A stretch of 64,000 bases of DNA from Paramacrobiotus metropolitanus. Its lineage: Eukaryota > Tardigrada > Eutardigrada > Parachela > Macrobiotidae. Shown piece after piece: positions 4,925-23,165 of the stretch (within the stretch, counting starts at the first letter, position 1; each line of letters opens with the position of its first letter). Location of the stretch: contig NW_026570251.1 in the NCBI RefSeq assembly GCF_019649055.1, positions 868,001 to 932,000 on the forward strand, given 5' to 3'. The notes under the pieces were generated by a model that was not told where the DNA came from, did no database searches, and saw only the letters and a program-made list of their open reading frames with translations. The position numbers were made by a program, and so were the translations under genes.

Positions 4925-6014
4925 CGACAGCGCTGCACTGAACAAGCGGATAATTATTGTACATGGAGCTCTTGTACGTACTTTGTACTAAAAAATTAGA
5001 ACGTGCTTAAAATCAGACTGCGGGGAATCCGCCCGAACGATACACTGGACCAAACTTCGATGTCAATCGTTCGATAGCTCACACTCTGTAGTAAAGCCAT
5101 CAAAAGTCAAATCTTAAAAAAAGAATACCAGCTTTCAAGGAACTCACAAAAACCTAACAAGCAAAGTTTACGGGAAGTGCTCAACCACATGTTCGAAGTG
5201 ACTGCTGAATAAAGCTAAGTAGCTGTCCCACCGTGGGCGCATGCGCTCTGTTAAGTACTGGCTCCTGAAATTATGTTTCCCAACATTACACTTCACAATC
5301 ACATTATCCAGTATTGCGAACCGTTGGAGCAACTAGATGCTGCTTTTTTATGTGCTCTTTTGAGGTATTTTTTTTTCTACTTCCCATGTGTACTCCGTTT
5401 GCGTTTTGTAACCTGCTGTTAACTCCGTGATAATGCCACGACCAAAGAAAAGTTTGACTGGACGGCGAAAGTTGCGGAATCGACAGACTGTCAATCAAAC
5501 TTCTACACAGTGCCAAGAAACCAACAGACTTCCAACTAGGAGGTAACGTAAAATCATTTTTAGATTGTGCTGAGGTTTCGATGAATTACGCAGCTTAATT
5601 CCAGACGAAGGCCAGTGATTTCTCATCCAGTAACTGTTGCTGCACCATCGGAATGCGCTTCTGCGATCACAGATAAGTACGTTATAAAATGGGTCGCGAG
5701 GGTCGCGTAAACAATTTACTGTAATTATTAAGTGCCGCTAAAACGTGTGTTTAAATTTAGATTTTTTTTCAGTAATGCAGCCTCTTTTGTGGACTCCTTT
5801 CTTTCGCTGAACGTGAACGACAATCGACCTTCCACTCCCCATGAAGCCAATCAGCACTTGCCATCTCATTATTAACTATCAGTAGCTATCAGTGATCTGT
5901 TTACTGCTGCAAACGACAAAATAAACGAAATAAAATACGTAGTTGCTAGCAGAGAAGAATGAACGGAAGCCAAGATACCAATAGAACCAATGCTCTTCTT
6001 TTGTATTGTACTAG
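4925..6014. other. Intergenic; one weak basic ORF
   Basis: No convincing gene. A short frame on the plus strand from the ATG at 5,431 to a possible GT donor near 5,543 encodes a basic peptide (MPRPKKSLTGRRKLRN...) like those that start some transposon proteins, but nothing downstream continues it. I looked here for the missing front of the astacin gene and did not find it. Confidence 0.35.
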
Positions 6015-8198
6015 GTGTTCATCAAACATTGGCAGACAGGGAGGTCGACAAAACATCACGTTGTCCCCGGCCTGCATTTTCCGCGGAGCGATACAGCACT
6101 TGACACTTCACGCTTTGGGATTTTTTCACGAGCACCACAGAATGGACTGCGATGAGTACCTGCTAATTTATTATAACCACACCGACCTCCCGCGCAATGA
6201 CAGCGTTTTCCGTAAATTTCCCCGAATGTCTAATTATGGAATCGAGTACGATCTGGAATCCATTATGCATTACGGCGCTTATGATATAGCCAACGCGGAA
6301 ACCCCAGGACGGCCGGTATTTGTTCCGAAAACGAATCCAAAGGGACGCCGAGTCAAAATGGGTCAGAGGCGCGGGCTGAGCGCCAAGGACATTGTGAAGT
6401 TGTGCACCGCGTACAACTGCACCGCTAGCAACGACACCATATCCCGTTTGGAACCGGTACCGGATTTCTTCCGTGTCAATCTGACACTGCCCCAATGCCA
6501 AACCCTATCGGAACTCCCGTCTTGGGATGTCGGCGCTACTCCCGCCATGTGCAGCGGATGGAAAATGCTGAAATTATTCTGTAACTGCAGCACTACTCCG
6601 GCGGACTGGAGAGAGGTCGTCAACACGGTGTCTAGTTTTCCGTTGTACGTCGCGAGTGCCGACCTCTATGACGGACCGGAAATCAATCAGGCACCGGACG
6701 TTTTTGCTGTGATCCGCCGACAGGTTGCCCTGTTCACGCTGCGCATGTGCGTGCAGGCCTATTCCGCTAGCGTTATCGCGCAGATGCGCTTTACTAACCT
6801 TGTTTACTTGAGACTGCAATTCTGTTTTCGTCTCATACTGCGCAGAGCCGACTTTATCGGCCTGGACCGATTGGTTATTGTCATCATGGATCGTAGCACC
6901 ATCGAAAGCCTGGAACCAGATACCTTCAACGCTTTACCGGCGCTCAAGCAGTTAAATCTAGAGAGCGGCATCTTTAATAACAGCACAACCGTCGTCTTCG
7001 AGAATGATACGCCTTTGTTGTTTGACCTGCGTATCGAATACCTGTATCGACTGCATTGCAGCTGTGAGTTCGCTCGATTTCGGCAGTGGCGAAGGAGCAA
7101 TACAGCATTGAAGTTCCATTTTAACCGAGCCGAGCTGCATCACATTGATGGCGTCCTGTACAGCGATGCATATTCCAGGGATCAACTATACTATCCAGTG
7201 AATTGTTGCGTTGAACCGTTTCCGCGATCACCGGAAGGATTCAATTTTTCGCAGTGGGAGTACTCCATCAACGAACCAATATGTTAGTCATATTTTAATT
7301 GATGCTTACAGAGTAATAGGTACCAGTCGTCGCTGTGCTGCAATCCGTACACGCGCATTACCGCTCTTTATATCTTGCAGGTGCTGACAACGCAACTACC
7401 GCTCTGCAATCCAAGAAAGACCAATGGAATCCGGTTTCAAAAAATCAAAGCCACACAATCGGTGGGTATCTCTTTTTTTTTTCGTTGTCTACTTACGCCG
7501 GCAAACATGCCGATTAATTGATTTTTGTTTAGATTCCCCATTATCGCTTTGGCTGCATCACAGAAAAGGTAGCAAACAATGTGACCACTATTATTAATCA
7601 TTAATAAAGAACTCGGTTACGTGCGCGCTATGGTTCGGTTTCTCGAGCAGGTATACCGGATACATCATCAGTTTCCACTCCGTCACAATCGTCGTCCACA
7701 ACAGGGCCTAACAAAGGTGGGCAAGACATCGCTTATAATTTTGCCAGCTGTGGACGAAACCGCATTTTTTTAGATGCAGCATTCAGCGGCAGCTCCGGTA
7801 AACCTAACCCTCTGGTTTACGTGTCTCTGTGTGTGCTGGCTTTACTGGCATTTCCGGGGGTATATTTCGGACGGCGACGTTGTGGAGATCGATTACGTCG
7901 CGACCGGCGCCCGGTGGCGGTAGATGGAGTCCGACCGGCCGGCGAATATCTCAGCAATGACGATTGCACAGCGAATGGTCAGCCAAACACTACACAGTCT
8001 ATAGAGCTTTCCAATCACACCCTGGATGACCGTGAGGCATCCATAGATTCGGCATCGGATAATGCGGAAGCCACGACGTTCCTAGGCACTGAGCATAGTA
8101 TTGCAGTGGACGGTCACGAGCGTGCGTTAGACAGTACAAGTAGTCTGGAGAATTCTGAAGCTGGTTCGGAAGTAGATCAGCAAAACCGTTTGAACTGA
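6015..8198 (+). CDS. Membrane-anchored astacin-like pseudoprotease with LRRs (5' end missing)
   Basis: Five exons join in phase: 6,015-7,282, 7,381-7,461, 7,533-7,568, 7,651-7,716 and 7,774-8,198, all with GT-AG ends and phase-1 introns. Exon 1 carries the second half of an astacin (M12A) domain: C-S-S-N-I-G-R-Q-G-G, the zinc signature as HLTLHALGFFHEHHR, the Met-turn SIMHY, and a closing GLSAKDIVKLC. The signature's catalytic Glu (HExxH) is Leu, while the three His ligands remain, so zinc may bind but proteolysis is unlikely. Leucine-rich repeats follow, ending in a Cys-capped LRRCT (LHCSCEFARFRQW). Exon 4 gives a Ser/Thr stalk. Exon 5 gives one membrane helix (VYVSLCVLALLAFPGVYF), a GRRR stop-transfer and a ~115-residue acidic tail. 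The N-terminal half of the astacin domain and the signal peptide were not found upstream. AATAAA lies at 8,299. A surface receptor or binding protein is inferred. Confidence 0.8.
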
Positions 8199-9910: not shown

Positions 9911-10515
9911 CTATATCGTGACCCATCCGGTCAAGGGCGTTTTGGGTATGGTTGAGGAGTCGGCTGCACAAACTTTCCCCGACAAAGAAGCCTTTAACGT
10001 CCACCAGAAACTGCAGTAACTCCACGGAGCAGTCCTTGTAGCCTTCGGCGTAGCTGCGACTGGTGCTGCTGCCGGTGTTGTCTTTGCTCTCGGGCGTCGG
10101 AGATTCCGAAGGACTCACGTGCTCCACATCCGCTACCACAAAATATCAATAAACACAAAATAAATATGAAAAATACTAAAATAAATATGATCAAAGGCAT
10201 ATAAATAATGGTAGCCGAACTCACTTTGAAACACGATGGAAGCTTGCTTTGGAGATAGCGGATATGCTTAAGGCCATTTCAATAATCTCCGTCTTCTCAA
10301 TCCTCCCGCGACCCTATCCAACAAAAAATAACTGGTAAAAATGCAGCATTTAAAATGATTCAAAAATTAAACATTAAAAAACATTAGCGATGCCAGTGAA
10401 TACGTACACGAACCTTTCGCAGGTAGCACGACGGTATCAGCCGGCTGAGATCAGCCAGACAGTTGTTCATCCGGTCCCGCCGGCGTTTCTCGATAATCCG
10501 ATGAGACATGGGATC
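9911..10515 (-). pseudogene. Partial clockwork-orange duplicate (bHLH plus Orange), frame-broken
   Basis: Matches three internal exons of the gene at 32.8-43.6 kb with their introns: the basic/helix-1 exon (10,414-10,515, 102 nt as in the gene), the helix-2 exon (10,225-10,313) and the Orange-domain exon (9,911-10,132). It is therefore a DNA-level duplication and not a retrocopy. The helix-2 exon is 89 nt against 91 in the gene because of two single-base deletions, near 10,271 and 10,230, which shift the frame. The splice sites still look usable. No copies of the two N-terminal exons or of the last exon are present. Remaining differences are few, so the copy is fairly young. Confidence 0.85.
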
Positions 10516-10924
10516 CTGCAGTGGAACAACACAACACTCATCTCGATTGCCGGGTGGAATTGACATTCGTTATGACAGATTTTACGGCTTACTCGATAAT
10601 ATCAAATAATGCAAGGCGTTGGGCTTGTTGCAGTCTACCATTTTGATCAAAGCTATGCGCAGTTTTTCTTTTTTTCAGAAATTTTGTACGTCCAGGATTT
10701 GTACTATTAAGCTAAAAAATGTTGTACGAATCAATCAAGTTCGGGCTCAAAACAATGGTTTTTTAAGCATGTTTGAGCTTTCGTCTACATAATAGACCAC
10801 AATTGCCGCACCAATCAGGACCAACTCGGTTCGCAGCAGCCGTTGGCATTTGAACGAAACGTTATGCCTTTTCTTTCTTTCGTCAATAGGGTTTACATAA
10901 ATTTATATAAACCTTATTGAAGAA

Positions 10925-11075
10925 AGTTATATATAAAATTATATATATATATATATATAAATATCTAAAGTTATATATAATTATATAATATAATATAAAG
11001 TTATATATAGTTATATATAATAATTATATATGATTATATATAAAGCTATATATAAAGTTATCTATATATTTATAT
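10925..11075. repeat. AT-rich microsatellite
   Basis: Runs of TA dinucleotides mixed with repeats of agttatatata. No gene. Confidence 0.8.
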
Positions 11076-11589
11076 CACTCGCACTTTATATCACTCGATG
11101 GTATTCGCTCGATAATGTTAACTGCGATTTTGAAATTTTTCAGTAAAGAGGTTTAACTGAAGAACGATATGTATTTTGATGAAATCCAGTAAAGTACAGC
11201 AATGCGTTACTTTATTCAAGTTGTGATCTGTGATAATTTTGTGTTAAATTGGCGGTACAACACTTGGCGTACAGCTGGTGAAAACATAGAGCAGTACATG
11301 TCAATAGCGCGCGTGTTGTACGTGCAACTTAATGCCAGTCGGCATAACCGGCTGAAGTACGTACTTGTACATACTGTACTTTATTACTTGTATCTAATCT
11401 TTATTGGTCAAATCAAAAACAAGGCTCTTTATTGGTCAAATCAATCAAACACAATGTATCGAAACATAATAGAGTAATACGAGAAAGAGTTACAACAGGT
11501 AAATCTCATTAATTAATTCATGTACATATCTCGTACTTGTACATACTTGTATCGAGTATGAACCTGTACGTACATAAAATGTCCATAAT

Positions 11590-11791
11590 AGAAGATATGC
11601 CGCTAGTTTAGCGTCAACTCGGTTTCGGTCCGGTTTTCAGTCGAACCGGTTTGGAGCCGCACTGAACCGGTTTGGAGCCGAACCGATTGAACCGGTTTAG
11701 AGCCGAACTGAATTCCCCTTTCTTTTGTATATTTTTCCCCACCCTCTTTTTTTGTATTAACATGAATGAACATGAATGAACATGATACCAG
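11590..11791 (+). repeat. Left terminal inverted repeat
   Basis: Matches the reverse complement of 16,757-16,937 with small indels. It contains three direct copies of GAACCGGTTTRGAGCCG, spaced like iterons, and ends inward in a CATGAATGAA repeat. The motif copies are candidate binding sites for a trans-acting integrase or replication protein. Confidence 0.9.
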
Positions 11792-11806
11792 ATTTATTCA
11801 TGATAT

Positions 11807-13027
11807 TTACAAGTGAAAAAATAAATTATCAGGAACATTGGTAGCCGGACAGTTGCGCTTCTTACATAAGTGATCCCAACGCGGATCAGAGAAAGGCTCA
11901 AAATTTCTAAGTTCACATTCGCAGTAATAACACTGAACACAGTCTAGTGAACCAAAATGAAAAAAATCCGTTTCCAGCTAATTCCATGGGTGAGGGTTTG
12001 AGATGTAGCTAACTTTGAACGACTCCAAACGCGATCCTAAAGTGCTATAGTTGCCGAAATCATCAATTTCGCGATCGGTTAGGGTGTTGCTGGCGTGTTC
12101 AGCAAGTTTGTCAGCTAGCGTAATACTGTTCTTATAGTCACACAGTTCAAACCACGCCGATGGTATGCTTTTGAGACCGCGCCAAGCTGCGGCAATAGCG
12201 CCCGCCAGGGTTGCGATTCCGTTCGTACATCCGCCAACACGTGGTGTAAGTGCCATGGTTGCTTCAAAAGCATTTTTAGGCGATAGATCGGCTCCTTTGA
12301 TCACGCAGTAAATAGCCATAGGTACAGCTTGCAGTCCCGAGGAATCATTGCCAAGGGCTTTCACCACAACACTTGTCTCTTGAGACAGCAGAGTTTTTAT
12401 GTGCACTAATTTTGATTGATACAGCTGAAGGCTAACGCCTGAGTCACACAGAGTGATTAGCGTGTCCAGAAACTGTGCGGGAGTAAAGTTGGGATATTGC
12501 AATGCTACGGCAATAGCGTAGGCTTGAAGCTCACATGCCCCGTAAGCTTCCATCGTAGGATGTGTAAGTTCGGCGACGTTACGTACGTTGCGGATCATTA
12601 TTTCTGTCTGATGTTTGAAGTGCAGTGGATACGCTGAAATCCACGCAGCAGGACCGTATCCTTTTTGGTATACACGTGGTACGATTTTATTCGGCAATGT
12701 GTCAAGGGATTCATAATTGCTCCACTTCCAGTGATGTATTCTAACTTTTAGCTTTCCAAAAGCCGAACGTATGACGGGGTGTGCACTGTAATATGCGTCA
12801 ACGCATGCACGAGCGGCACTCGCTGTACCATAACCACCGTCATTTAACAATGCGTTACCAAGCGCGTTTGTTAATACAGTTTTTTCACGATGAGAGCGGT
12901 AATCTCGAGTATCAACAAACATTTGCGCTACGTTATGGACAATACCATTGTATGCCTTCAAAGGAGCGCACAAGCATTCCCCGAGTAGGCCGCCGACTAA
13001 GCAACCGCGAAGTTGATCTTTCTCCAT
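11807..13027 (-). CDS. ARH-fold pseudoenzyme with C-terminal BIR beyond an in-frame UAG
   Basis: The first 349 codons resemble ADP-ribosylglycohydrolases (ARH/DraG). They have a glycine-rich start (residues 8-20), a central TH-x-x-x-x-AYGACELQA helix (155-169) and the late GGxTxx...AGAIAAAW motif (265-282). The usual Asp metal ligands are gone: the early (T)DDT is REKT (47-50) and GGDTDT is GGCTNG (265-270). Binding without hydrolysis is likely. A BIR domain starts at R333 and is cut by UAG (11,978-11,980). The same frame stays open for 56 more codons to UAA (11,807-11,809) and completes C-x2-C-x16-H-x6-C exactly (Cys codons 11,930, 11,921 and 11,849; His codon 11,870, lower coordinates). This means UAG read-through, a recent nonsense change, or a 36-nt intron that would remove the stop. 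The start ATG lies about 40-50 nt after a TATA-like box. Confidence 0.75.
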
Positions 13028-13066
13028 TTTTTTTGCAAATGATAATTATTTAACGCAACTCCAGCT

Positions 13067-13075
13067 CTTAAATAT
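13067..13075 (-). promoter_or_regulatory. TATA-like box of the ARH/BIR gene
   Basis: ATATTTAAG on the minus strand, about 40 bases upstream of the ATG at 13,027. Confidence 0.5.
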
Positions 13076-13355
13076 GGTCAGAAAAAACAGCTAGCCCCCA
13101 GTTTAATTTCTGACCAATCACAACGCTCATATCCAAATATTTTCCTGATTTTCCGAGGTACGTCACAGGCTGTTTGACCAATCAATATGGTTACGCAGTT
13201 TATGGGGTTGTAGTTTTTTTCGATTTTTCAACCAATCATCGACATAGTAAACTGTTTCAAGTTTGCCAGTGACGTATGTATGAAAAAGGCGGGGTTATGC
13301 GAGAATTTACAACCAATGGGGCGAGAGTTTGGCTTCCTCGGAAACAATCCGCGAG

Positions 13356-13363
13356 TATAAAAG
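13356..13363 (+). promoter_or_regulatory. TATA box of the 81-residue gene
   Basis: TATAAAAG, about 84 bases before the ATG at 13,447, leaving a roughly 55-60 nt leader. Confidence 0.65.
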
Positions 13364-13446
13364 CGACGCGGCTGAGCTTTTCCAAATCATTCTGCAAAAA
13401 AAAAGTTGAGAGCAAGTTCTATCATCATAATATCACGAGAGCAAAA

Positions 13447-13692
13447 ATGGATTTCGCACGTATTTTGGATTTTGTCGGTGATCATGACGGCTACACTGTA
13501 TACAAAGTCAGTAGTGTGGTAAGTCTGTTCTGGAATGCTAAAGAAGTACGGGCATTTCTTGTGTTCGAAGCAAATGCGGATGCTGAAGGCTTGCGTAAAG
13601 CATGGAATAAAGGGATCCGATTCGGATACAATGAAATTACCGAACTACTGAAGATCTTGAAGAATGGACATCTGAAAGACACGCTTGGGTGA
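13447..13692 (+). CDS. 81-residue orphan protein of the TIR element
   Basis: The ATG at 13,447 is chosen because it follows a strong TATA box and a short leader; an upstream in-frame ATG at 13,276 lies before the TATA box. The product is a compact, mixed alpha/beta-looking soluble protein beginning MDFARILDFVGDHDGYTVYK. It has no signal peptide, membrane segment or Cys motif. I do not recognise it. Its 3' end overlaps the end of the convergent basic-protein gene by 56 bases (13,637-13,692). Its place in a cargo cassette with BIR and IAP genes suggests a role in the element's interaction with its host, but that is guesswork. Confidence 0.6.
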   Translation: MDFARILDFVGDHDGYTVYKVSSVVSLFWNAKEVRAFLVFEANADAEGLRKAWNKGIRFGYNEITELLKILKNGHLKDTLG

Positions 13693-14440
13693 TGACTTTG
13701 GAGCAGCTGGGGAAGACGAAGCGAGGCTGGGGCGGAAACACTAGCTTAGCCCTAGGCTTGACCAAGGGCTTAGCCTTCGGCTTAGACACGGGCTTAGCCT
13801 TTGGCTTAACCACGCGCTTCACCTTAGGCTTTTCCTTTGGTTTAGCCTTACGAGACCGAGGCGGTTTAGGCAATTCAGCAACGTAGTTCCAAGCACGAGC
13901 ATTAACAAAGAGACCAGGGCACAAACCGTCAATCAGTTTCTAACAAAATAAAAAACTATTAGAAAATTTCAAAAAACTATAATTTAATTTATCAAATAAT
14001 ACCTCCAGCTGATCCAACCATTCCATTAGGTTAGTGTGAGCCTGACCAAAGTCCTCAAGCCACGTATACTCAGCCCTCAACGTAACCCGATACACAGTGC
14101 TTACAATATCTAATAAAAATAAAATTAAAAATTAAAAATCAATCAAATTAAAAAAATAAATTAAAACGTACCCTGGAAATGCTGAGCTTGTGACTTATTC
14201 TCCTCATCAGACTGTCTATGCCATATCTTAAGGTATTGCTGAATTTCATCTATAGAAAATATTGTATTCATAAATAATATTTATTAAAATTTATTTTCAA
14301 AAACAAATAAAAAAGTTCAACTTACCAGCTTGCTTGATGGACCAGTTGATGTAGTGTTGACGGTTGACAAATATAAACACGTGAGGAGGCATGGGATGAG
14401 CCATAATAGCAGCTTGCTGGGCAAAAGTAGGACGAGGCAT
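13637..14440 (-). CDS. Spliced Lys/Pro-rich basic protein of the TIR element
   Basis: Four exons join in phase: 14,326-14,440, 14,172-14,249, 14,003-14,109 and 13,637-13,939, with GT-AG introns of about 62-76 nt. The product is about 200 residues. The first half is helical and rich in aromatic residues. The last exon carries a run of KPKAKP-type repeats (about residues 120-160), like the tails of linker histones or viral core proteins, which suggests binding to DNA or chromatin. The ATG at 14,440 follows a TATA box (14,606-14,617) and a ~135-nt leader. Introns inside the element mean it has been through a eukaryotic nucleus; they argue against a recent cDNA origin. Exact function unknown. Confidence 0.7.
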
Positions 14441-14605
14441 GGTAAAGGATCCGAGGACTGATAAAAAACAAAACTAACGGAGAAAAGCGTTCGTATATCC
14501 AGGCAAAAAACTAACTGAGAAAACGGTTGAATAATCCAGGCAATGGTGGTAATCCAATGGAGAAAAGTAAACTGTTGGAATGAAGTAAAAATGCCTGGTC
14601 GCGTC

Positions 14606-14617
14606 GGTTATATAACC
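14606..14617 (-). promoter_or_regulatory. TATA box of the basic-protein gene
   Basis: GGTTATATAACC, a palindrome containing TATATAA on the minus strand, 165 bases upstream of the ATG. Confidence 0.6.
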
Positions 14618-14739
14618 CGAAACCAAACCAAGTTTCAACTTTCGATACCGACATAATCGTACGATCTATTGTCTGGTCTCGCTGTATGATGACGTTATGT
14701 TAACAGAATACAGTTAACTAGACTAACTTTTAGCGTACA

Positions 14740-14985
14740 GACCAAGAACCAACCAAAAACCATCTCGAAAACAATGACAGACTGAAACGCGCAAATATCA
14801 GACAGAAACCGAAGTGGGCGTACCCTAGCAAGCAACTACCAATAAAAATCGTTCCGAAAACAATGATTGACCGAAACGCGCTAATATCAGACAGAAATCA
14901 AAACTACCAATAAAAATCAATTCGAAAACAATGAAAGACTGAAACGCGCTAATACCAGACAGAAACCGAAGTGGGCGTTACTAGA
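14740..14985. repeat. Three ~75-bp tandem repeats inside the TIR element
   Basis: Three successive units share the order accAa-AACCA/ATAAAAATC - CGAAAACAATGA - GACTGAAACGCG (or GACCGAAACGCG) - AATAYCAGACAGAAA, and two of them end CCGAAGTGGGCGT. They sit in the long noncoding gap between the basic-protein and IAP promoters, a position suited to an enhancer or replication-origin iterons. Confidence 0.7.
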
Positions 14986-15053
14986 TACCTCCCCTTCCAT
15001 AAGCGGCTGTACCTAACCCCTCCCATATACGCCCTAACTGTACTTACTCAGCC

Positions 15054-15146
15054 TGGCCTCACTCCGCTCGGCCACGGCAGGAGACCTCCCGCGCACACAC
15101 CGAGAGGACAGTGACATAGGGGCGGTCCTCGCTACGCTCGGACCGC
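15054..15146. other. Twin hairpins with matching loops
   Basis: Hairpin 1 is TGGCC-(11 nt)-GGCCA at 15,054-15,074. Hairpin 2 is GCGGTCC-(11 nt)-GGACCGC at 15,122-15,146. Their loops are TCACTCCGCTC and TCGCTACGCTC, matching at 9 of 11 positions although the stems differ. A conserved loop on different stems suggests recognition by a protein, for example at an origin or processing site. Confidence 0.7.
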
Positions 15147-15149
15147 TGC

Positions 15150-15930
15150 CTTGTTTTGTCAGCTAACTTAATTGTATATTAGTAATAGTTCTAACAATTG
15201 AAAGCTTTGTTGATATAATACCTCATTATATGTTGACCTAGAAAAACAAGTATTATATATCTCGACAGACAATAGAGCCCGGACTAATGTGTCTAGACGA
15301 GAAAAAAAACCCGGGCTAACACTGTCGCGACGAACCAGGATGACATTATCTGCGAAACAAAAATCCAAAGAATGTTTGACCTAGTAAACCAGGATTAATA
15401 TCTGGCTCTTCTTTTGTACCCCATTGATAACGAAAGATGGCTGAAACACTCAACGACATTCTACCTTTACTCAATGCAGAATAATTTCTGACGAATAATA
15501 ACTTTGTCTAATTGATTCAGGCTTTATCACTGAATCAGCTTATCCACTGAAAAACAGGCTAAACTATTGTACTAGACACAAATTAGAGAGAACTTACTCC
15601 GAACTGATGACAAACACAGTTTAATGCTAATCCCAATACACTCAAGCATGAACAGTTGATTACACACAACATTCGTACTAGTACAAAGCAAACACGGTTC
15701 ATTTACACAGTTTCAGGCTAAACCTGTACGATATAGACACTAAACAGAGTACACACAGCCCCAGTGTCGAAGTACATACTGTACCATGCAAACGATCTTA
15801 TACGCAGTAACACCATAACCGACCAATACTCTACCCTTACGGTATAACCGGGGGTTGGCCTTCGTACTAATGATCCAATAGCTGGTAACCATACTGTTTT
15901 GGAGGTGTGGTCTTGAATTGCCGCAGTCCC
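15150..15930. other. Noncoding stretch of the TIR element
   Basis: No supported gene. There is a 7-bp inverted repeat AGCCCGG / CCGGGCT around 15,275-15,316. Several AACCAGG-type motifs lie near 15,340-15,400. AATCAGCTTATCC/CTGAATC repeats lie near 15,515-15,560. Confidence 0.4.
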
Positions 15931-15937
15931 AAGACAC

Positions 15938-15945
15938 TATATAAA
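15938..15945 (+). promoter_or_regulatory. TATA box of the IAP-like gene
   Basis: TATATAAA, 47 bases before the ATG at 15,985. An initiator-like TTCAGTTG lies 23-30 bases downstream of the box. Confidence 0.7.
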
Positions 15946-15984
15946 CCCCAACTACCCATTGCAGGAGTTCAGTTGACTGTCAAA

Positions 15985-16746
15985 ATGGATATGACACTGA
16001 TCAGCAATTGTTTCAACAGTTTTGAAAACTGGCCGGACCAGTCGCTCGCCCCTAGAGAACTGGCAAGCCAGGGGTTTTATTATCAATGGGTGCATGACGA
16101 AATTCACTGTGCATACCGTGGCTATATTATGGGTGACTGGGTGAATTCACGGTATAAGCCATACTACCGACACCGGTTAGCCCGTCCAGACTGTGTAAGG
16201 GGCGAAGATGAGAGAATACTACTTCCGTTTTCACCGGCAATGAAAGACTACAAGGCACGCTTCGCTACTTATGCTGATTGGCCAGCAAACAAACATCAGC
16301 ATCCCAGGGATATGGCTGCGGCCGGCTTTTGTTATGAGGGCAGGGATGATCGTGTACGCTGTTTTCACTGTGGAGGTGCACTACATGCTTGGGAGAAAGA
16401 CGATACCCCGTGGGAGGAGCACGCTTGGACTTACCCAAAGTGTCCGTATCTTATACAGACAAAAGGCTTAGCATTCATCAGTGAAATTTGGAAAAAACGC
16501 AAAGAAGCCGAAACAACGTGTTGTGTGCTATTGCAAAAAGCACCGCCAGCAACGCCGTCCGAAGATCCCAAAGAGAAGTTGAGCTGTATGAGAACGAGAA
16601 TACGAGAATGCTACGAGAATGATTTTGAAATCATGTTTAGACCCTGCGGTCATTTAGTTTGCTGCGCAAAATGTTCAAGCAAGCTGCTACTGTGTCCGAT
16701 TTGTCGGGGGGTTATTTTCAATAAGTGTTGGGCTTTCTTCTGTTAG
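15985..16746 (+). CDS. Inhibitor-of-apoptosis-like protein, two BIRs and a RING
   Basis: 253 residues from the ATG just after the TATA box. BIR2 (about residues 90-158) is canonical, C126-x2-C129-x16-H146-x6-C153, with the usual GG...W and DxPWEEH. BIR1 (about 12-72) keeps C42, H63 and C70 but has Arg at 45 in place of the second Cys. A C-terminal RING keeps C209, C221, H223, C227, C230, C237 and C240; the position of the first Cys is Ile206, so one zinc site is incomplete. In this family the BIR binds caspases or IAP antagonists and the RING is an E3 ubiquitin ligase; IAP genes are repeatedly acquired by large insect DNA viruses. Here it would protect cells carrying the element, which is inference. 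The fusion-protein BIR at 11.9 kb is a separate, more divergent sequence. Confidence 0.85.
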   Translation: MDMTLISNCFNSFENWPDQSLAPRELASQGFYYQWVHDEIHCAYRGYIMGDWVNSRYKPYYRHRLARPDCVRGEDERILLPFSPAMKDYKARFATYADWPANKHQHPRDMAAAGFCYEGRDDRVRCFHCGGALHAWEKDDTPWEEHAWTYPKCPYLIQTKGLAFISEIWKKRKEAETTCCVLLQKAPPATPSEDPKEKLSCMRTRIRECYENDFEIMFRPCGHLVCCAKCSSKLLLCPICRGVIFNKCWAFFC

Positions 16747-16756
16747 ATTGTGTGGT

Positions 16757-16937
16757 ATTTCATGTTCATTCATGTTCATACAAAAAGAGGGTGGGGAAAA
16801 AAAACAAAAGACAGGGGAATTCAGTTCGGCTCTAAACCGGTTCAATCGGCTCCAAACCGGTTCGACTGAAAACCGGACCGAAACCGAGCCGAACCGGACC
16901 GAAACCGAGTTGACGCTAAACTAGCGGCATATCTTCT
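16757..16937 (-). repeat. Right terminal inverted repeat
   Basis: Reverse complement of the left end. It has one extra TCGGTCCGGTTCGGC unit and one fewer GAACCGGTTTRGAGCCG copy, so the two ends have drifted by repeat gain and loss. Confidence 0.9.
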
Positions 16938-17058
16938 CATAATACATATCTTGTATGTACATTGAAGCACCTGGATTTGCGCAAAACGCATGCTGGCGAT
17001 TTTTCTTTACATTTTTCATGTTGTGTGTACGGCTTGTGCCGACTCAGCAGCCACTTGA

Positions 17059-17394
17059 TTCGCGACATCCGCACGCGCGGGAGCAGCAGCAGCACAGGCC
17101 GAGCAGGACAAGATCGAGAAATATCGCAATATCGGACAGGACTACTGGTTCCGTCCTCTGGGCTTTGAAACGCTCGGGCCGCCCGGGCCGGAAGCTGCCC
17201 GCACGATCACGGAAGCTGGACAAATGATACAACAAGAAACCGGCGACAAACGAGCCACGGACTACCTTGGCCAGCGGATCAGCATTGAAATTCAACGAGG
17301 AAATGCGGCATCGATCATGGGGACAGCGCCAATGGGAGCAAATTTAGATCAAATTTTCTCTGTAATTAGGCCGCCCCTCTCGATTGATGCTTAA
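17059..17394 (+). pseudogene. C-terminal fragment of a non-LTR retrotransposon ORF2
   Basis: An open frame ends at TAA (17,392). Its text (YWFRPLGFETLGPPGPEA..., then DYLGQRISIEIQRGNAASI) matches in style the tail that follows the reverse transcriptase domain in many animal LINEs. No reverse transcriptase core lies upstream: the frame is closed by TGA at 17,056, and the 5.35-kb TIR element ends only 120 bases away. I read it as a truncated 5'-less LINE copy. It might also be the part left beside the insertion site, but no matching upstream half is seen to the left of 11,584. Confidence 0.55.
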
Positions 17395-18640
17395 TAAGTG
17401 GTTGTTTTCTAAGTTACTGTAAAAGCTATGGTGAGGAGAAAAATAAAAAGTTACCTTGATTTGCTGGTAAACACAAGCGGCTTTTGGTGCCGTGTAGGGA
17501 CCAACAAGCATGGGATAGACTGGGATTCGCGTCTTGCGTCTTGTTTACAATGCTTCGATCCTTACCATAATTTATTCGTGTTGTACAAGTAAATTGACTG
17601 GCACCGCAACCCGCTGGATAAAATCTGGGCACTTGTTTGACATTTATGCGCCTGAGACTCCAAGCTGCTATTTAACTGCGTTCCGTTAAGTTTGTAATGG
17701 TACCTGTTTGTGGATGGGATCTATGTGATATCACAGATTCTTTCCGTAACTGGGTCGCATCAAAAAATTTAACATTAAAAAAAGATCCGATCTCGTTATC
17801 CTAGTTAGTAGTTGCTAGATTAAAAAGCTCCTTCGGCAGCAAACGTGAAAAGCAGACATAATGCCGGATGCCGGAATGTTACTGCATGCGATTAACGGGT
17901 AGTCAGTATGGATTTGGTAACATCCAGATTTTCGCTGCAACCTTGATGCGTCCAGTATTTAGCAGTTTCTTGTTGACCTGTAGAATCTCCTGAAGGCCGC
18001 CAACGCCGGGTGCCGTGTCACTCGGCGTATTATGAGGTTCGGCCTGTGTTCTGCACTGAAGACAGCACCTTCAGAGTTCAGCGACAACGCAGAAGATAGC
18101 AAGCCTTTTAGCAACCCACTTCTGTTAGCTTTAGTGTGAAGTGAATTTATTGTCCTTGCAACGGAGCGGTTGCCCCCTCTAGGCTTCAGACAGTAGAGAA
18201 AGAAACAGAGTGTAACAACAATATCGCAAAATATCAACAGGAAAACATGTAGGTCATTTCAAAGTTATACTAAACACGCAGGAACACAAAGTCAAAAGAA
18301 CAAGCGTTAGCCATTAGCATATGAGCAGGAAGAAAGAAAGTTGGTACTGTGGTTGCGAAAAGTCGGTATTACCTATGTGGAAAAAGGGAGGGAGACGATC
18401 GCGCTGGGGTCGATGCATAAAACCAAAACCCATACAACTTAGTATCAACAGAATTTTCAAAAATTTCCAAAATAAAAACCGTGGGGAAAAGGAAAGCACC
18501 GTCACTTACGCACGTAATCGCCTTTTAGAAGCGTTGTCAATTATATCGCAACCGTGAAAAAGGAGCAAGAAAGTAAGAACCATTAACACTGAAATATAAA
18601 ATTCCGTAACTGCACGAACAAGTTAAAATACATTAACAAT
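17395..18640. other. Intergenic, no supported gene
   Basis: Only chance frames. Nothing with a domain, good splice pairing or repeat structure was found. Confidence 0.4.
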
Positions 18641-18666: not shown

Positions 18667-21600
18667 TTAAACGCTTTCTTTCAAGGTTTTCACGGATGGC
18701 AGATCATTCAAGTTCACTTTCTTCAGGGCATTGGTGAAAATGTTCAGCGTCACGTAGTCAGTGGGTGGTAAGGGAAGCTCGTTCCAGACGGACACAAGGC
18801 AGTTAAGGTACAATTCATGGATGGCGGTTACCGTTTTTCCACAGATGGTTGTCGGAGCCGGTTTGAACGGACATGGGTGCCTCATGAGACGTTCAGATGG
18901 TCTTAAGTTACCTGCAACAGACTCAAGCGCAGCAGCCGAAACGTTAAGCGGTAATACTGTACGACCCGATCACCCATCGGAACCACTCGAAACACCAATT
19001 TGTATATAAACGACAAAGCTTTTTTCACACGGCGTGTCCCTAAAGCTTCCCATTTAAGTTCTTTCAGTCTTTTGTCATAACTTAGGGCGTTGTTACCGGG
19101 TCGCAGGGTTTTAGTAAATCGTCTCTGACAACGTTCGATGACTTTCCTGGACTGCTTTAGTAACGGATGTGTGATTAAACTGCAATAATCGATTACCGAA
19201 AGAACCAGTGACTCGAAAAGTCTTATGCGAGCACCGAGCGGACTTTTCGGCGTTAAGAATTAGCTGTTTATCGTTGAGCCACTCACCAAGATTCGTCAAA
19301 TCTTCCTGCAGCAACTGACTATCTGACGTGTCGGTAACGGGACGTAGCAGATTAATGTCATCCGCAAAAACAAAAGCTGCGCTTCAGTTTTTCAGTGCAC
19401 GGATAATAAAATTTAAGACACAAATGAACAACAAAGGTCCCAAAACTGAACCCTGGGGTACACCACCGTGTACTGGTAGCTCATCAAAAATTTCATTATC
19501 AACCACGACACGCTGTAGCCTGTTTTTCAAATAATCGGAAATTAAATGCACGATCTGACTGGGGAGATCCATTTCGATCAAAGCGCCGATAATCGACTCA
19601 TGGGAGAGCTTATCAGAAGCTTTAGAACACTCCAGAAAAACGGCGTCTACAGCAACCTCATTAGTAATAAAATCATTAACAGTTTTAACGAAAAGAAATA
19701 ATTGCAGTTCAGTTGATCTTTTATGTCGATAAGCAAATTGGTGGTCCAAAGGGATTTGATTTTATTTAGGTAGTCACGAATCAGTTGGTCAAGACACCGT
19801 TCGAAAATTTTTGACACAGGATTAATAACGATACCGGTCTGTAACTGCCTGGCAATCTATGATCAGCAGCAATTTTTGGCACAGGAGTGATGAAAGAATG
19901 TTTCCATCTTTCAGGATACACACCTTCGTTGATAGCCGCAGTAAAAATTAATTTAAGGAGAACGATGATAGATTGCGCAGCGATCTTCAAAAGTTTGTTG
20001 GTGATCTCAAACTTACCGCTAGATGTGGTAACTAAAATCTTTGCTAATTGTTCGAAAATTAAAAGTTCTGAGATTTCTCTCGTTTCACTGTTTTTACAAA
20101 CCAAATTTATGCTGGTTCCGTCCGTTACAATGCGTATTACACACAGACTGAGATTCGTGGTAAACAGTATTTAGGGTGTTGGCCTTTTTCCTGTCTGTTG
20201 TGGCTAACGTGCCGTTACGGGTGGTTAATGGCGGCATCCCAATCTGGTCATTTGTTGATTTCATAAAACGCCAAATTTCGATGGGTTGTTTCTGTATGCT
20301 GTAGATATATCCGCAAGTTTGTGTTTACCAAACTTTCTCACAAGGATGTTACACTTTTTAGAAAGTTTCTTCCATTTCAATTTAAGATCACCAGACTTAA
20401 CGTCCTGGCGGTACAGCTGAAAAGCACGATCGCGAGAATTAATCCGTTTCTTAATATTTCTGGGATATTTTATCGACCCTTTGCGAACTCTTACATCAGT
20501 GTAAGCAAAAAAAGATTTTGCTGTTTTAAGAAAAATTTCTTCAAAATCATCGGCTCTTTGGTTTGCGTCGAGACAAGCAACCTGTTCGCCCAATCAATAG
20601 CATTTAACGCGGCATTAAAATTATCGATACTGCAACTTTCAATTTTCCACCGTTTCATTGTGCGAAACTTTCTACGAACCTTTTTTACTTTCAAAATAAA
20701 TTCGAAACCAATATGGTCATTCTTTGTAGAAGGCGGACTGATTGGTTCTGCTGGTTCAAACAGCGTGTTAGCACTTAATAAGCACAAGTCGAGACAGTTG
20801 TACTCTCTGGTGGGGAAGTTTATTATCTGGATTAATCCAAATTCCTGTACGGCACTTAACAACTCCCGGCTGGCTGGCTTGATTGCTGTTTTATCAGGCC
20901 AGTTTATATCAGGCCGATTAAAGTCACGCATAACTATGGACTTGGCTAAAATTTGAGGAGAGAAATTAGAGCGCAAATGTTCAATAAGAGCAGGTACAGC
21001 ATGCATGCATTTGTCTGGTGATGAATAGAAAGCGATGAAAATTCGATTAAGCGACCGGGATTCAACACACAGAATTTCGAGCTCAGATGATTCTAGCCAA
21101 AGCCAGTAGACTAGTACAAGCCAAGAAGCAGATAAGATCAGTTAAGCCAACTCTGCTGACTTAGCATACGAGTCTAGGGAGAAATGACTGAAAAAGTCGT
21201 TTGAAAATTCATAACAATTCATTCGTGGAAGATAGTCAAACGATTTCCACGGTGACCACCTAGAGCATAATGTGGTCGACTATCCGGTTCCTTGACCTAC
21301 TCATCATTTTTTACATTCAAATTTTTAGAAATTTCTGTGCTGGAATTCCATTCATTGCGATCTGTACGCGCATGACCTCAATTCAAAAAGACAATGTCCT
21401 GGAGTGAATGGAAAGAATAGAACGTTTCCCGAATCTTCTATATTCAGTTCCTTGTTCGAGGGTGATTTTTTTAAAAGGATGAATCCGTTTTGCCACATTA
21501 TTTTGTACAGCTCGTACAACAAGCGCGTCCCTCTGTCTTGCACGAGGAATTACTTATAGAATAAATTTCAAAAACTATCAAAGGACGCTGGTCTGAGCTC

Positions 21601-22056
21601 TCTTCTAATCAGCGGAGCTGGCGTGGCAACGTGACCGCGTTATATGCCTGCTTCTTGGCTTGTATTAGTCTACTGGCTTTGTTCTAGCTCAGGCTTATGG
21701 AATGCACGTAAAAAATGTCGTAAAACAATAGCCACACCACCACGACCATCAGGCCTTGCTTTTCTAAATACGTTAAAATTATCTGGGTCAGCAAAACAGG
21801 AATTCTTCATGAAAGGCCTGTCATACGTTTCAGTAAGAACAGTCACATCACTACCTGAACAAAACAATTTAACTTTGTCCTGCTTATTATTAACGCTTCT
21901 CACATTACAGCACCGTACACGGATGTTTTCCAATAGAACCGGAGGTTTCGCCGGTTTTACGGTTACAGAACTGCTGGACAAATTTTCATTATTTAAAAAC
22001 GTTTTTGAATTATTCAAATTTAACAAATTTTGTTCCCCACATTCAAAAGTGTTCAA
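18667..22056 (-). pseudogene. LINE ORF2: endonuclease plus reverse transcriptase, broken
   Basis: Endonuclease part: NVRS and LTETYDR motifs (21,800-22,000), interrupted at 21,091-21,688 by a transposon, then a DFN motif read as MRDFNRPDINW (the usual GDFN has Arg for Gly). Reverse transcriptase part: PVSLL, then HQFAYRHKRST, then GVPQGSVLGPLLF, then FADDINLL. A frameshift near 19,750-19,800 separates the first two motifs, and an in-frame TGA (19,384-19,386) lies just before FADD. The tail VWNELPLPP is at about 18,780. The enzyme copies its own RNA at a nicked chromosomal target; this copy cannot. Confidence 0.9.
21091..21688. mobile_element. hAT-like MITE nested in the LINE
   Basis: The element 21,098-21,681 (584 bp) begins CAAAGCCAGTAG and ends CTACTGGCTTTG, with about 34 bp of near-perfect terminal inverted repeat (CAAAGCCAGTAGACTARTAC...). 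TTCTAGC is duplicated on both sides (21,091-21,097 and 21,682-21,688). Removing the element plus one duplicate puts the LINE endonuclease back in a single frame, which confirms the boundaries. No transposase. Confidence 0.9.
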
Positions 22057-22058
22057 CT

Positions 22059-23165
22059 TCAGCGGTAGCGTTGGACGTTTTTTAAAGAACTGTTATAGAA
22101 CATCCGCGATTTATACAGATCTTGGTAAACATTGCAGTATTCATAAGCAAAGGCTCCATGTGGATTTTTCACGTCGTGTTTACCAGCCGCTTTACAGTTA
22201 ACACATTCATGTTTAAATGAAGGATCAGTCTCAGAACAGTCAGCAGACAAATGATGCTTACCACAGTAGCCACACACTGCCACTTTACCACACTTCGAAG
22301 CTACATGGTAAAATTCACAACAGTTCTTGCACTGCGACACGTAAAAGTGATCACTGACAGGGCAAGAATACCAATTGAGCAAAATAGATTTTTTGGTATT
22401 CAGAACGTTTTGCGTCTCGGCATCGACATCGATGACAACCGCATAGGTTAATGGGTTAGGACGATTGCAAGTAAGCTTTTTTACGATCTTAATTTCAGAA
22501 TCAACGCGCAATTTTTTGACTTCAACTTATTAATCAAATTTTCTTCGGACATGGCAACTGGAACCCTGCGAATTATCATACGATGTTTGCAGGCTTTCGG
22601 CTTTTCGACACTCACACCAAGTGCATCGCTATGCTTTTGAAACAACTCTTCACCTTTCGCCGCATCGTGTGGCGTTTCAAACTCCACGACAACTGACTTA
22701 CCGTGACCCGGGCGGACTTTCGATACACTGGCACCTTGTGCTCCGGTGGGGATGGTAGTAGACAGGATGTTGCACAAATCCGTCATTTCTTTTGCTGTTT
22801 TGCGTGACTGAGGTGATAACGCCGCATCTTTCGGTTTCAGCACAAGGATTCTCTTATCGGATGCATTTTTAGCATTTGGCAAGGTTCCTTGGGAGGTTAC
22901 AGTGGCGTAGGAACTTTTCGAAAGGGCAGGTTGGGAATTCTGACGTTGAAGGGATTCAATTTCCAGCAACGCGGTTTTGTGCAGTTGTTGCAGAGTCAGT
23001 TAGCTCCAGTATTGCACGTCCATCGGCAGTCAAAGCTGTGTAATCCGCTAGCTTTTTACATGTAAGAAAATCCGTAATAAACCGATTGATTTTAGCATTT
23101 GACTGGGAAAAATCAAGGACTGGAATTTCAGATGTTCTGATCGAACTTTTACTGTTTTCCCCCAT
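22059..23165 (-). pseudogene. LINE ORF1: zinc-knuckle RNA-binding protein, broken
   Basis: Three overlapping frames (22,956-23,165, 22,481-22,969 and 22,059-22,511) make up one protein with two frameshifts. The last third has CCHC knuckles: C-x2-C-x4-H-x4-C, then C-x2-C-x3-H-x4-C, then another Cys/His cluster. The middle part (VVEFETPHDAAKGEELF) looks like an RNA-binding fold common in LINE ORF1 proteins. It ends directly before ORF2. Confidence 0.8.

Follow-up and report, generated by a model that had tools for sequence, protein, structure and literature searches.

The element treated here occupies positions 11590-16937 of a 64,000-nucleotide stretch of the genome of the tardigrade Paramacrobiotus metropolitanus (C31:868001-932000 of the 169.8-Mb assembly), the whole stretch being called the window and all element coordinates being window positions. 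It is 5,348 bp long and is flanked on both sides by an exact CATAAT. Very probably it descends from a member of an endogenous Polinton/Maverick (adintovirus-like) family by an internal deletion that occurs in this one copy. As a decaying remnant it is nothing unusual; more interesting are the full-length elements of the family with their cargo of IAP and ARH/BIR/TBP genes, which is what is new.

Two arms and a single deletion joint

The element consists of two arms, each of which is collinear with one end of long elements found elsewhere in the assembly. The left arm (11590-13685) follows the ARH end of the elements C151, C13, C21, C3, C11, C308 and C70 at 93.6-95.4% identity (80% for C25), and the right arm (13687-16937) follows the IAP end of C151 and C7 at 88-89%, with parts at 92-95% identity to C70, C3 and C199 and 80% to C25. 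The arms meet at a joint (13685-13687) with at most about two bases common to both sides, and the corresponding points in C151 lie about 16.75 kb apart, this being the sequence missing from the window copy. When a 401-base query spanning the joint was compared with the genome, only one of the 34 matches crossed it, namely the window itself, which argues for one deletion and not for a satellite family. Genes for PolB, integrase and capsid proteins are absent from the element's open reading frames (ORFs) and Pfam matches.

Polintons typically create 6-bp duplications and have ends starting with AG, and both features are present here. The duplication is exact (11584-11589 and 16938-16943), and the terminal inverted repeats, 196 nt on the left (11590-11785, plus strand, starting AGAAGATATGCC) and 178 nt on the right (16760-16937, minus strand), both open with AGAAGATATGCCGC and are identical over the outer 46 nt, with small gaps and mismatches beyond. 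These ends are not a product of chance, because a query with the left end gave at least 44 genome matches, or 40 places after merging four split pieces. Among the end matches listed, and leaving aside four short outer pieces of split matches, 8 of 12 convergent pairs are spaced 20.7-26.8 kb apart; one 43-kb pair in C25 seems to cover more than one copy. At the six two-ended copies, the 6-bp duplication is exact in the window, C151 and C13. An Rfam search over 11300-17300 gave no match. A preliminary description, made from the letters of the window alone, had noted the CATAAT duplication and inverted ends of about 180-200 bp starting with AG, had placed the element in a Polinton-like class as a non-autonomous member, and had called for a genome search with the ends and for a full-length relative with integrase or polymerase; all of this has held, the ends being common to other copies, long relatives with the same ends carrying the core genes, and the window copy lacking these genes together with the missing 16.75 kb.

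Long relatives and their core genes

The long copy C151, the one in which the Pfam scan for core genes was made, encodes PolB, an integrase, a double-jelly-roll capsid protein, a TBP homologue and a small protein, ORF148. PolB was recognized at L019:73-3417 (PF03175, E 1.4e-41) and is continued in the next ORF by phrog_1907 in this one copy, and the rve integrase at L020:3-941 (PF00665, 1.4e-13), with a counterpart in a diverged lineage at L042:627-1367 (2.3e-11); in a genome-wide Pfam rve search other integrases predominated, and its result was set aside. The major capsid protein was identified as a double jelly roll, the best BFVD match of its model being a bracovirus-labelled protein, 26% identical and with a low TM-score of 0.38. 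Candidates for the ATPase (PF00910 0.0027, PF04665 0.0093, PF01580 0.025) and the protease (PF00770 0.04) remained below the Pfam cut-off, with phrog_6891, an ATPase, at 4.4e-5, and no Pfam match to a penton was found in C151. By fold comparison with Foldseek, adintovirus proteins took ranks 1, 3 and 5 among the viral matches of the ORF148 model (E 6.5e-4, 3.0e-3 and 1.5e-2), two of them named MOSUB; rank 1 was the MOSUB of a Bos-associated insect adintovirus (TMq 0.56), and rank 2 a mycobacteriophage protein (1.3e-3). No relatives were found in a phage collection, and queries of IMG/VR with ARH-BIR, the capsid protein and a 27-row capsid alignment yielded no confirmed locus.

The TBP homologue of the long elements (L020:3087-3758) is divergent, and only two relatives were found in the protein database, both on short contigs. 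TATA sites occur upstream of 10 of 27 element genes against a background of 11% (p = 4e-4), a modest enrichment among genes that include related ones of the window, C151 and C48 and are thus not independent; it is consistent with an element-encoded TBP, and is offered only as fitting it.

IAP and ARH-BIR cargo across the family

The long copies carry at one end a 407-aa protein in which an ARH3-like domain is followed by a C-terminal BIR, and at the opposite end an IAP with two BIRs and a RING; since they carry the same genes at the same ends, this cargo is not special to the window copy. Residues 5-309 of the ARH-BIR protein are homologous to ARH3 in the PDB (E 6e-24; Pfam PF03747, 3.9e-29). 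The motifs whose residues we take to serve catalysis and metal binding are mostly replaced, YTDDT being aligned with HREKT and GGDTDT with GGCTDG; in the diverged lineage the same positions read, by eye, WEKT/WEKM and SGCTDA/GGCTDA. The nearest ARH protein comes from this species and matches the C70 copy at 86% identity; NCBI lists a protein of this kind as 'ADP-ribosylhydrolase ARH3-like [Paramacrobiotus metropolitanus]'. Pairwise BIR scores gave no decision on whether the ARH-linked BIR derives from a left-end IAP.

How widely the cargo accompanies the capsid gene was surveyed with 92 of 99 capsid rows (seven second pieces of the same gene being left out), 68 of 97 ARH rows, 111 IAP places and the stronger TBP rows, so that all counts are lower bounds. 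Within 22 kb of the 92 capsid loci, many of which have broken frames, an IAP was found at 60 or more, ARH at 33 or more, both at 28 or more and TBP at 67 or more, and about 2.6 IAP-bearing loci would be expected by chance. At the 21 loci whose capsid protein is at least 80% identical to that of C151, at least 16 have an IAP, at least 19 ARH, at least 14 both, and all 21 TBP; one of these loci, C90, belongs to another lineage by its IAP. Other lineages have their IAP at the other flank of the capsid gene, about 5-8 kb upstream of it, and this points to repeated capture or to a swap.

A diverged Polinton lineage was also observed at 11 loci (C48:906000-918500, comprising L041 and L042, and C23, C6, C113, C7, C60, C221, C83, C78, C95 and C126), with ARH about 6-10 kb upstream and the IAP 1.4-2.1 kb from the start of the capsid gene, leaving little space for PolB between capsid gene and IAP; no PolB ORF was seen by eye in the C48 pieces. 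IAP-like frames, open over 203 aa and 59-60% identical to the window IAP, occur at C143:288431, C133:126900, C106:152978, C51:457729, C49:105460 and C17:1073521, several of them near Polinton capsid genes, and the C143 frame has two BIRs and no RING in frame.

Gene damage and selection in the window copy

Five proteins of the window element were scanned with Pfam, and 17 ORFs of at least 60 aa over 10500-18000 were inspected by eye. The scan recovered ARH (PF03747, E 8e-23), two BIRs (3.6e-31) and a RING (3.3e-9). The ARH3-like gene (11978-13027, minus strand) is open over 349 aa and departs from the family frame near codon 338, so that the C-terminal BIR present in open copies is lost; an out-of-frame remnant of its coding stretch lies at about 11838-12010 on the minus strand. 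ORF148, a 148-aa protein with a PUR/Whirly-like predicted fold, is represented by its first 79-80 codons (13447-13685, plus strand) and is cut at the deletion joint. A four-exon gene for a protein with a basic K/P-rich tail (13640-14440, minus strand) is conserved in the C151 and C7 copies and has lost its 3' end at the joint; its protein has a single Pfam match, to MerR-DNA-bind, below the cut-off (E 0.27, 12.3 bits against 25.4), a result that speaks neither for nor against a chromatin role. The IAP gene (15985-16746, plus strand), with two BIRs and a RING, is open over 253 codons. In BIR1 a zinc-binding Cys is replaced by Arg, and the start of the RING is altered; neither change was seen in five other aligned copies, C151 and C3 being normal, and the window IAP thus lacks the intact set of BIR and RING zinc ligands. 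A 67-nt subterminal direct repeat is present in three copies at 14755-14978 (plus strand).

Measured against the preliminary description, the IAP and ARH/BIR cargo is borne out by Pfam, and likewise no transposase, integrase or polymerase was found in the five scanned proteins, nor was any evident by eye among the 17 ORFs. The four genes on both strands are present, but not whole, since the ARH frame breaks before its BIR, ORF148 ends at 79-80 aa, the basic-protein gene has no 3' end, and the IAP is without a BIR1 zinc ligand and a normal RING start. A TATA box for each gene proved to be an overstatement: a strict TATAWA lies within 150 nt upstream in two of the four (the ORF at 13447 and the IAP), about 172 nt upstream of the basic-protein gene, and nowhere before ARH.

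The ARH and IAP genes are mostly under purifying selection in the long copies. Of the private changes in the window copy, 25 are nonsynonymous and 11 synonymous, whereas the open-frame copies together have 36 and 46 (Fisher p = 0.016), equal codon numbers being used and the C21 copy being included; when C21 is left out, the comparison is 25:11 against 25:42 (p = 0.002). The omega of the window copy, 0.64 with a 95% interval of 0.33-1.41, shows relaxation relative to the other copies and not strict neutrality. With damaged genes and a high share of nonsynonymous changes among its private ones, the window copy is unlikely to be the working cell-survival cassette for which it had been taken.

Origin of the shortened copy

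Two other shortened forms were encountered, and the window, C7 and C13 copies have three different structures. The C7 form, of 3.7 kb, consists of an IAP arm with an inverted copy of its own end, and the C13 form (C13:230146-245075, L010 and L011; 14.9 kb) carries a PolB section flanked at either end by the ARH arm, the two arms being 98.8% identical over 4.5 kb, and sits inside an exact CCTACC duplication. The latter would be hard to make after insertion, which suggests that rearranged or shortened genomes probably can insert. These forms may be comparable to the defective genomes that arise in adenovirus-type (linear, protein-primed) replication.

The reading as an internal-deletion derivative can be put as follows. 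The parent element, or its shortened replication product, would have been inserted by the family's integrase, and its middle would have been lost through end-joining or through a replication error, as in defective genomes of linear protein-primed viruses, the window copy having later decayed as selection on it relaxed. The cargo of open-frame relatives would most likely keep the host cell alive while the element replicates, as its domain content suggests, with the IAP binding caspases or their regulators, and with ARH-BIR perhaps binding rather than cleaving an ADP-ribose-like ligand, or acting as a scaffold. A wider proposal, which we regard as possible but rather doubtful, is that tardigrade Polintons carry a repeatedly shuffled anti-death module, with IAPs at either end in several lineages and a pseudo-ARH3-BIR that would read an ADP-ribose-type signal and couple it to apoptosis control, together with their own TBP that would drive their genes, and that shortened genomes such as those of the window, C7 and C13 arise and insert in the manner of defective interfering genomes.

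Several points weigh against the reading as a decaying deletion derivative. The deletion may have come before or after the insertion. A flank-to-flank query of the genome found no empty insertion site, and part of the left flank (about 11426-11521) belongs to a dispersed repeat with 27 further places. A matching 6-bp duplication was not seen at C25 or C199, and that of C7 agrees in five of six bases. The core genes were scanned in one long copy, whose penton, ATPase and protease are unmatched or below the cut-off in Pfam. The interval of the window omega is wide, and choosing copies with open frames for the comparison introduces a bias. Nor is the window alone in its decay, since C21 shows a like excess (ARH 11 nonsynonymous to 4 synonymous) and the IAP of C70, also an open frame, has a RING Cys replaced by Phe. 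Finally, the anti-death function is argued solely from domain content.

The preliminary description had favored a mobile non-autonomous or satellite Polinton that spreads an IAP/ARH cassette with a helper's integrase, a view to which the intact ends and exact duplication lend some weight, as do the two other shortened forms and the difficulty of making that of C13 after insertion. We consider it unlikely, however, as the window joint occurs once in the assembly, several copies of the same shortened structure being absent among the 34 joint matches, the arms correspond to the opposite ends of a long element, no two of the three short forms share a structure, and the window genes are damaged. 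That the remnant has been domesticated, its IAP or ARH gene now serving the host, would agree with an IAP frame open over 253 codons and with an omega interval that leaves room for some constraint, but it is very improbable given the damaged BIR1 zinc ligand and RING start, the frameshifted ARH-BIR, and a nonsynonymous share above that of the other copies taken together. An assembly artefact that fused the two ends of a long element is no more credible: similar long copies elsewhere are a setting that can mislead assemblers, but the divergence of each arm from all other compared copies is about 5-20%, the duplication is exact, and the flank bases adjoining the element match only C31.

Comparison with known systems

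With their PolB, rve integrase and double-jelly-roll capsid protein the long relatives agree with Polintons/Mavericks as defined in PMC4028283 and PMC6431247, whereas the window copy lacks the core genes and the long family adds a TBP, an IAP and the ARH-BIR fusion. Inverted ends that start with AG and a 6-bp duplication are further traits common to Polintons and the family. A likeness to adintoviruses (Adintoviridae) is suggested, at the level of predicted fold only, by the viral matches of ORF148, including MOSUB, and also by a gene content like that of Drosophila-associated adintoviruses (PMC8363768); the three described in that source are, however, 13.3-14.6 kb long against 20.7-26.8 kb here, and the second match of ORF148 is a mycobacteriophage protein. 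In planarians, Burro giant retroelements carry BIR and BCL2-like domains (PMC6431247), so that a precedent exists for mobile elements with cell-death genes. Burro is nevertheless a Gypsy-type retroelement with these domains inside its polyprotein, and no ARH fusion is mentioned in the account of it given there (PMC6431247). The family's 407-aa protein shares its homologous region with ARH3 ADP-ribosylhydrolase and differs from it in the replacement of most catalytic motif residues and in the added BIR, and the family IAP has the two BIRs and C-terminal RING of baculovirus-type and cellular IAPs but sits at a Polinton end in many copies, in damaged form in the window. No description of IAP, ARH or TBP genes in animal or tardigrade Polintons was found in the titles and abstract openings of the open-access papers listed. 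The main texts of PMC6431247 and PMC11071308 contain neither 'TATA' nor 'ADP-ribos', and those of PMC11071308 and PMC11071296 contain none of 'TATA', 'apoptosis' and 'ADP-ribos(yl)'; on tardigrade transposons, the relevant part of PMC11071193 has one mention of Maverick.

If these readings are true, virus-like elements with inhibitors of cell death encoded close by number in the dozens in the tardigrade genome (at least 60 of the 92 capsid loci), and at least one element protein is listed under a host name, the NCBI ARH3-like entry cited above, so that counts of IAP or ARH families in a stress-tolerant tardigrade would be inflated by element-borne genes. A single protein, the ARH3-BIR fusion, would connect ADP-ribose biology with the control of apoptosis, an animal Polinton with its own TBP would have a means of directing transcription, and the three differently shortened copies would make the formation of defective genomes in integrating animal Polintons testable.

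Neighbouring features

About 1 kb from the insertion, an exon with a bHLH domain lies at window positions 10387-10566 on the minus strand (PF00010, 1.6e-8). Farther upstream, one open frame at 5959-7284 encodes an astacin protease domain and then a weak leucine-rich-repeat match below the cut-off, and on the other side of the element a probable remnant of a long interspersed nuclear element, with an endonuclease domain (PF14529, 2.3e-7), occupies 20494-22969 on the minus strand.

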